From NCBI RefSeq assembly GCF_040807025.1, contig NC_090953.1:20940997-21004996 (forward strand): a stretch of 64,000 nucleotides of DNA. Direction: 5' to 3'. Position 1 is the first letter of the stretch. Every line of letters starts with the position of its first letter. Under the pieces are notes generated by a model. The model did no database searches. It worked only from the letters and a program-made list of their open reading frames with translations, and was not told where the DNA came from. This stretch comes from Struthio camelus (taxonomy: Eukaryota > Chordata > Aves > Struthioniformes > Struthionidae). Positions 57,101 through 61,042 of this stretch are shown piece after piece. A program made the position numbers and the translations under genes.

Positions 57101-60100
57101 CCCCTTTCCTGCCTTCCTTCCGAAATAACAGCAAATGTGCTGAGCTTGAAGAGGAGTTGAAAACTGTGACCAACAACCTGAAGTCGCTGGAGGCTCAGGC
57201 TGAGAAGGTAGGCTAGAGACTTCTGTGAGAATGTGCTCCTTAATGAGTTGTCACCTGGACTGGCCTGTGTTTTTGTATGCTGATAACTTTTGTATTCAGC
57301 ATTTCAGCAAGGCTGTTTGTTGATAGAAGCATTTGAACTTACGACTCGCTTCGTATTTGGCTGTTATCAGAACCTAGCATTCTTTCTGATTCCAAATAGG
57401 TCGGTATTATTTGAACACATCCAACAGCATTTATGTGCCTTTATATAAAAGTGCTTTAAAATGGCATTTGTGTGCTAATGCATTTTCTCGAAATGCCTCT
57501 CCTCTTTAAAACTGAAGAATTAATTTTGACTCCGAGTTCCCACTGCATAGGCCTGGTATATAACTCAACCAGCATATAACTCTTGTAATAAACAAAACGT
57601 GTATGACTACAGTCTGGTAAGTGGAATTTAGTTATACCCACGTTAGTTTCTTCTATACCATTCGTCTATTGGAAGACAGTTATGAATGTGATATTTTTGT
57701 ATATGTGGAGTGCTCGGTCTAATATCAGTGATCCGCTTTCTAATTACAGTACTCGCAGAAAGAAGACAAATATGAAGAGGAGATTAAAGTCTTGACTGAC
57801 AAACTGAAGGAGGTAAAATTAGAACTGTTCTTTACAGCACACCCTCCAGTACTACTTTGTTTCTTTTAATATAAACACTACTTTGGATCTTTAAAGCTGA
57901 ACATGTCATTTCTGAGACAGTGAGTGAGTTTAGCATTAGCTGTCTCTCCTAAAAGTGAGTGTTTCTGTATTAATTATTTCAAATCTATCTCCTGTCATTA
58001 TACTCTTTTTTTTTTTTTTCTTCTCATTTGAATTGTTGTTCCTCTATTCGTATTCCTCTGTGTATGTTCCCTGAAATCATTTGTATTTGTCTTGACTTCA
58101 GGCTGAGACCCGTGCTGAATTTGCTGAGAGGTCAGTAACCAAGCTGGAGAAGAGCATTGATGACCTAGAAGGTATGGTTCTTTGTTTTCCACACTTAGTA
58201 CAGAAATACAGATCTCATGTTTTCCTGTTGTTTTTATTCAGTACTCAGTTCTACTCTTCAAACTTGTCCTGCTTATATAAATGGATCTGCTTAAAGAGTA
58301 AAATCTGCAAAATGTTTGTTAAATGTTTTCCAACTGAAATGTATTGATGTTAAACTACTGATGTTAAACTTAAATGTTTCGGGTGTTGAACAGCGTTTTG
58401 CTCTTGCCTGTTTCTTTTTCTCTGATGTTCTTAAGATGCCTTTCGTTTTTACTTTAAACTCTTCTGTTTAGAAGTATATACATATACAAGGTAAACGATT
58501 AGATAACAAGTATTATTAGCAACTATTTTATTTGCTTAAAAAGTTGGTGAAGAGCTGTGTTATGTTGGCTATAATTAGGAACATAGCAAACCAACCTAAT
58601 TCATGACCACAAAGAGTGCAGATCAGGGCAAGCATTTTTGTGACAGAGAACAGTTGCTGGTTTTCAGCGAAGCTAATGGATTGTATACTTATTCAAGGGG
58701 ACAACTTATTTAACTCCAGAGTTTGCTTTAAGGCTCTGATAAATCTTTCAGAACTACAACATAATGCGCTTTCTCCCCCAGAGCGAATAATTCAATAGTG
58801 TTTTTTATATGGAGTTTACTACTTAGATGTGTTACATTAACTCTAGGATTTTAAGCACCGCAATTGCTTGGTATAGCAGCAGACTTACTTATCCATAAAG
58901 TGTGTGAAATATCTAGGATCTAATACTCAGATGCTGAAAACTTATGGCCATTTAGAAAAGAAACAGAAGAAAACTGAGTGCTTTAGAAAGAAGAAAAATC
59001 TCTTGAAAAAACTGAGCTTATGACAGCTCACACAAAGCAATGGGTTTTATAAAAGAGCAATGGAAGATAAGTGTTAGCATTTTCCTTGAGCCCCGTTTTG
59101 AGATCTTCTGTCCCTGCTACTGGTTTTTGTAGCTCGTGTGTGCCCCTCTAATGATTGTTAAAACAGGTTAAATCCAGGATAGGGAAACATGGGGTTTGCT
59201 TCCCTTACATGCTTTGTTTGCTTCCATCCTTTCTCTTTATCACTGGCAGTGCAGTGAAAGAACTTGTCACAGAACTGTTCACTTCTTTTATTCATTATTA
59301 CTCCTTAATTTTGTATTTTGTTGGGTTCTCTTTGTTCTCTGTCTGCCACAACACTTCTTTCTGTGTGCTCTCTTCCCCTTTCCTGCTGCTTCTGGATGGT
59401 ATCTCATGCCACTGCCTTCACCTTCCATCCCATGATCACGCTCCATTTCCTTGCACACCTCTGCCTTCCTTTGGGGGAATGTTAGATGAGCTATACGCTC
59501 AGAAACTGAAGTACAAAGCCATCAGCGAGGAGCTGGACCACGCTCTCAACGATATGACTTCCATGTAAATGTCTTCCCAGCTTGTGCCTGCACCTGCTTC
59601 CCTGCTCTCATTGATTGCGCGGTTTCGGCTTTGTGAAGTTATGCTCCCTCTCTAGCGGGAGATGCATTCGTTTAGCGAGACTAGATGTACAAAATACCAT
59701 GAATGGTGGTGTGTTTTTTTTTTTTTTTAAAACCGTGGTGGAGTGTGGATGAGTGTTGTGTCTAGCCTGGTAAATACTCATGGTGATTTTGTAAGCTGCC
59801 TAATAAGCTTGTGTTTACTCTGTCATTCCATATCTGATCCTTGTGTCTCGTGGTTGCCCTTTGTTTGTAGCTCTGCTTTTATCCTTTCAGCTCACCTCTA
59901 TTCAAGTATCTTCTACTAAGCCCATCACTTTTAAATTGCCAAAAGATAATTACCACAGTACATGTTGCATACGGGGTATGTTCTTCTGCTATCACAATTT
60001 TCCTCTGGCAAAGTTCCTAGAAGAGTTTCAAAGAAATCCGTAAGCCTTAGCTGTATCATCTGTTAATGCTAGTGGAAAGTGCGTATCTAAATTTTCTCAA

Positions 60101-61042: not shown

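Follow-up and report, generated by a model that had tools for sequence, protein, structure and literature searches.

The last exons of a TPM1-type tropomyosin gene in the ostrich (Struthio camelus) carry a stop codon that overlaps a splice donor, which raises the question of where the striated-muscle protein ends and with which residue. When the intron between exons 9a and 9b is kept, an ATG (59563-59565) is followed in frame by a TAA (59566-59568), and this TAA lies within the exon 9a donor, gtaaat. The initial annotation had noted this overlap and had proposed that exon 9a can serve as either an internal or a terminal exon.

A TPM1-type gene reaching the striated 3' end

The gene lies on the plus strand of the stretch of DNA analysed here (64,000 nucleotides; the window), and the window reaches its striated 3' end. 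The coding exons upstream of the 3' end were placed with a spliced model, as follows (window coordinates).

48011-48124, plus strand: coding exon 1a
48293-48418, plus strand: coding exon 2a
48601-48726, plus strand: coding exon 2b
50624-50755, plus strand: coding exon 1b
54236-54369, plus strand: coding exon 3
55668-55785, plus strand: coding exon 4
56243-56313, plus strand: coding exon 5
56570-56645, plus strand: coding exon 6a
57132-57207, plus strand: coding exon 6b
57750-57812, plus strand: coding exon 7
58102-58171, plus strand: exon 8, which leaves in phase 1 (donor AAG/gtatgg)

The elements of the 3' end were placed from the sequence and the model; exon 9a was also matched to solved tropomyosins.

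59486-59564, plus strand: exon 9a (striated), entered in phase 1 and left in phase 2
59565-59570, plus strand: exon 9a 5' splice site, gtaaat, holding the read-through TAA (59566-59568)
61037-61038, plus strand: exon 9b 3' splice site, AG
61039-61300, plus strand: exon 9b, comprising the third base of the Ile codon, the TAA stop (61040-61042) and 3' UTR (61300 is an arbitrary cut in the model, not the 3' end of the transcript)

In the spliced model, the chain 1a-2b-3-4-5-6b-7-8-9a-9b encodes an intact protein of 284 residues ending in DMTSI, which aligned with a solved tropomyosin alpha-1 chain over residues 1-284 (E 2e-151). A peptide search of the window for exons 9c and 9d gave best matches at E 0.28 and 1.0, at positions implausible for such exons, and both exons probably lie beyond the window end at 64000. 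A search of the window against Rfam at gathering thresholds returned no match.

Stray vertebrate tropomyosin was also sought in microbial and viral collections, where an 18-base pattern was matched by 60 stretches from genome_contigs and nine from viral_contigs. Compared with the exon 9a peptide (E up to 1) and with the window DNA from 58173 to 61400 (E up to 1e-3), none of the 69 loci gave a match, and the pattern matches were rejected as chance hits.

Two readings of the end of exon 9a

Joining the donor at 59565 to the acceptor at 61039 gives TCC AT/A TAA (Ser-Ile-stop) and a product of 284 amino acids. Reading through exon 9a gives TCC ATG TAA (Ser-Met-stop), and this product, ending in DMTSM, also has 284 amino acids. 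Direct reading and the rebuilt transcript agreed exactly with the earlier claims that the unspliced end is ATG TAA and the spliced end ATA TAA, and that splicing to exon 9b sets the last residue as Ile (DMTSI rather than DMTSM). The positions on which those claims were built (59564, 59568, 60127 and 61039) were checked and found correct, and an ATTAAA is present at 60127-60132. Isoleucine was the last residue in all six solved-structure tropomyosin sequences in which the end is printed, and Ile284 is the expected last residue. The warning about gene finders that halt at the first in-frame stop also held: such a caller would misreport both the last residue of a muscle protein (as Met) and its 3' UTR, and it is mainly for annotation that the arrangement matters.

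A stop codon within the donor is a product of codon phase

The overlap of stop codon and donor at exon 9a is nothing special. The exit phase of exon 9a is 2. Intron bases 2-4 therefore form a codon when the intron is read through, and this codon is TAA in donors beginning GTAA and TGA in those beginning GTGA. By a donor-site matrix, an in-frame stop is expected within the first six bases of approximately 73% of phase-2 donors, compared with 1% of phase-0 and 2% of phase-1 donors; in other words, an in-frame stop is usual in phase-2 donors generally. Three exons here leave in phase 2 (3, 5 and 9a), and in two of them, exons 5 and 9a, the donor is gtaaat and an immediate TAA follows; the donor of exon 3 (GTGG) gives no immediate stop. 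The exon 5 donor occupies 56314-56319. Exon 5 is a constitutive internal exon, and because it has the same pattern as exon 9a, a stop within the donor is not by itself a mark of a composite exon.

Exon 9a is probably joined to exon 9b in muscle

The best explanation for these observations is that the locus is the striated-muscle 3' end of a vertebrate TPM1, with exon 9a normally internal and joined to exon 9b, and with Ile as residue 284; we place the probability of this at about 0.95. In muscle, the phase-2 donor of exon 9a would be joined to the acceptor of exon 9b, and exon 9b would complete the Ile284 codon with its first base and carry the TAA stop, the 3' UTR and the poly(A) signals, while the ATG TAA seen on straight reading would be the way in which a phase-2 GTAA donor reads. 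Three features of the window fit this explanation: the phase-2 join of exon 9a to exon 9b yields Ile and a stop, the upstream TPM1 exons are intact, and AATAAA is present in the exon 9b region. Against it stands the exon 9a donor, which is weak (score 1.29 with the same matrix, ninth of the gene's 12 donors) and so leaves room for regulation.

The arrangement is already known, having been described for mammalian TPM1, and it is from that literature that use of the 59564-61039 junction in ostrich muscle may be deduced. According to a study of human TPM1, in transcripts with both exons coding stops at 9a, and 9b provides the stop codon together with the 3' UTR (PMC4480939). The human 9a primer in the primer table of that study, when reverse-complemented, begins CGATATGACTTCCATATAAG; of its 20 positions, 19 agreed with the spliced junction of the window and 18 with the unspliced sequence, a small difference. 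The human 9b primer was uninformative, as its match at 61189 (15/20) was bettered by an ungapped match at 31146 (16/20). In the excerpts available to us, long reads from rat TPM1 join 9a to 9b, the last muscle exon; exon 9b of monkey TPM1 alpha and kappa is named as 3' UTR (PMC9889151); and a mouse single-cell study reports a switch in the heart involving exons 9a and 9b (PMC9750877). A nomenclature paper, again as far as its available text goes, allows that exon 9 may combine two splice forms and leaves these out as differing in non-coding 3' regions (PMC4426136). Strictly, the non-coding label does not hold throughout, as the Ile codon takes its third base from exon 9b.

Mammalian striated TPM1 thus has in common with the ostrich gene the order 9a-9b, the origin of the stop and 3' UTR in 9b, and Ile as the last residue of the solved TPM1 chains; the species differ, and the likeness covers exon order, the source of the stop and the last residue. 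In human TPM3, a paralogous gene likened here by description, 9b is also the last muscle exon, and variants in TPM3 exon 9b have been reported in muscle disease. Since a 9a-9b end is described in mammalian TPM1, the ostrich locus is best regarded as unremarkable in its anatomy, with a minor pitfall for annotation.

Poly(A) signals around exon 9b

Motifs were counted for ten patterns in three regions (30 tests, each with 500 shuffles). Three candidate poly(A) signals bear on the choice of 3' end.

60127-60132, plus strand: ATTAAA in the 9a-9b intron, a candidate signal at chance level
61229-61234, plus strand: AATAAA, the likely exon 9b poly(A) signal
61302-61307, plus strand: another AATAAA, close to where exon 9b ends, with a T-rich stretch after it

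In the 9a-9b intron (1474 bases), AATAAA is absent (0.50 expected) and ATTAAA occurs once (0.70 expected); combined, they number one against a shuffled mean of 1.19, a count reached in 346 of 500 shuffles. A wider set of 11 signals was also below expectation in this intron (3 vs 4.89). In the exon 9b region (61039-61400), two AATAAA were found where 0.10 were expected, and no shuffle of 500 reached this number. A measure of downstream G/T richness separated the signals little and carries little weight here: it was 0.22 at 60127, 0.36 at 61229 and 0.56 at 61302, and 0.31, 0.38 and 0.36 at further signals at 62102, 62212 and 62293.

Other fates of exon 9a

Three further outcomes, each compatible with ordinary 9a-9b splicing, were weighed. 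In the first, the 9a-9b intron is sometimes retained as far as the exon 9b poly(A) sites, giving Met284 and a 3' UTR longer by approximately 1.5 kb. The read-through product is indeed 284 amino acids with a terminal Met, an intronic poly(A) signal would be unnecessary, and the retained form would have no junction downstream of its stop and hence would not trigger nonsense-mediated decay. However, the available portions of the TPM1 literature consulted, including the rat study and PMC4480939, describe no such form, and what could be consulted on TPM1 intron retention and intronic polyadenylation (including PMC4402522, PMC7969005 and the rat study) contains nothing on the 9a-9b intron. Occasional retention is therefore conceivable but unlikely.

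Skipping of exon 9a is comparably improbable. Exon 8 would then be joined to exon 9b in another frame, yielding a third product of 294 residues, and the open frame that this needs is present in the window. The available text of PMC4480939 describes human TPM1 lambda and nu, which lack 9a, contain 9b and have 287 residues; these forms were found in breast cell lines and not in cardiac tissue, and the tail length in the ostrich is unlike the human one. The frame opened by the exon 8-9b join runs through 61039-61150 and encodes a tail of 37 residues, a counterpart of that in lambda and nu.

The third outcome is the proposed composite internal and 3'-terminal exon. An in-frame stop does follow the donor directly, as expected of about 73% of phase-2 donors, and the intron holds one candidate poly(A) signal, the chance-level ATTAAA at 60127. 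A composite exon in Xenopus alpha-tropomyosin was reportedly described by Hamon et al. in 2004, to judge by the title. This exon, 9A9', reportedly ends the transcript in embryonic myotome and is an internal exon in adult striated muscle; in the initial annotation, its use was said to differ between heart and skeletal muscle. We take it to be the same exon of the orthologous gene. Terminal use there would go with an intronic poly(A) site, whereas the ostrich intron offers one chance-level ATTAAA. In a literature search on composite internal/3'-terminal tropomyosin exons, no paper was recognised, from the portions available, as describing the Xenopus case. The weak donor and this title-level precedent speak for composite use, as do rat TPM1 transcripts that, in the available part of that study, end at exon 9a; others there end at exon 7 or 8, which suggests that the 9a ends are truncated reads. 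With no AATAAA in the intron, the wider signal set below expectation and the stop accounted for by codon phase, composite use is distinctly unlikely, and the sequence lends such an extension of 9a-9b splicing little support. It is very doubtful that exon 9a is a true composite exon through which some muscle, or some stage, makes a regulated Met284 tropomyosin with a different 3' UTR, under control of the unusually long AG-free pyrimidine tract upstream of it.

Sequence context of exon 9a

That tract is the longest of the 4742 AG-to-AG gaps on the plus strand of the window.

59273-59483, plus strand: AG-free stretch of 211 bases, 73% pyrimidine, 5' of exon 9a, a candidate region for a distant branch point

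The 20 bases adjoining the exon 9a acceptor contain a GGGGGAA run and only ten pyrimidines. PMC1431707 treats a large AG exclusion zone as the mark of an exon whose branch point is predicted to be distant, and gives a mapped position of -175 for the branch point of rat alpha-tropomyosin exon 3. The tract suggests that exon 9a may likewise use a distant branch point. Long AG-free tracts also precede exons 2b (154 bases), 8 (140) and 6b (121).

Depletion of PTB in rat H9c2 cells increased 9b-containing Tpm1 transcripts, according to the available part of that work. PTB-like motif counts were not above shuffles in any of the three regions, which counts against a simple argument from PTB sites. 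Seven-T runs exceeded expectation both in the 9a-9b intron (12 vs 1.21, 0/500 shuffles) and in the 9b region (9 vs 1.28, 1/500), these being overlapping counts from a few T-runs. YGCY was raised in the intron between exons 8 and 9a (25 vs 17.88 expected, 9/500 shuffles) and in the 9b region (10 vs 5.84, 6/500). For the RBFOX-like GCATG, five copies were counted in the 9a-9b intron (1.70 expected, 10/500 shuffles; one of the 30 tests), at 60365, 60465, 60616, 60911 and 60944; TGCATG occurred there twice (0.82 expected, 105/500 shuffles). Given the 30 tests, the raised T-run, YGCY and GCATG counts serve as leads only.

Tissue-regulated splicing of ATP5C1 exon 9 makes the striated-muscle protein differ by one residue in length at its end, as described in PMC7969005. 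ATP5C1 exon 9 is a cassette exon that itself carries the stop codon, whereas the read-through stop of ostrich TPM1 lies within the donor.
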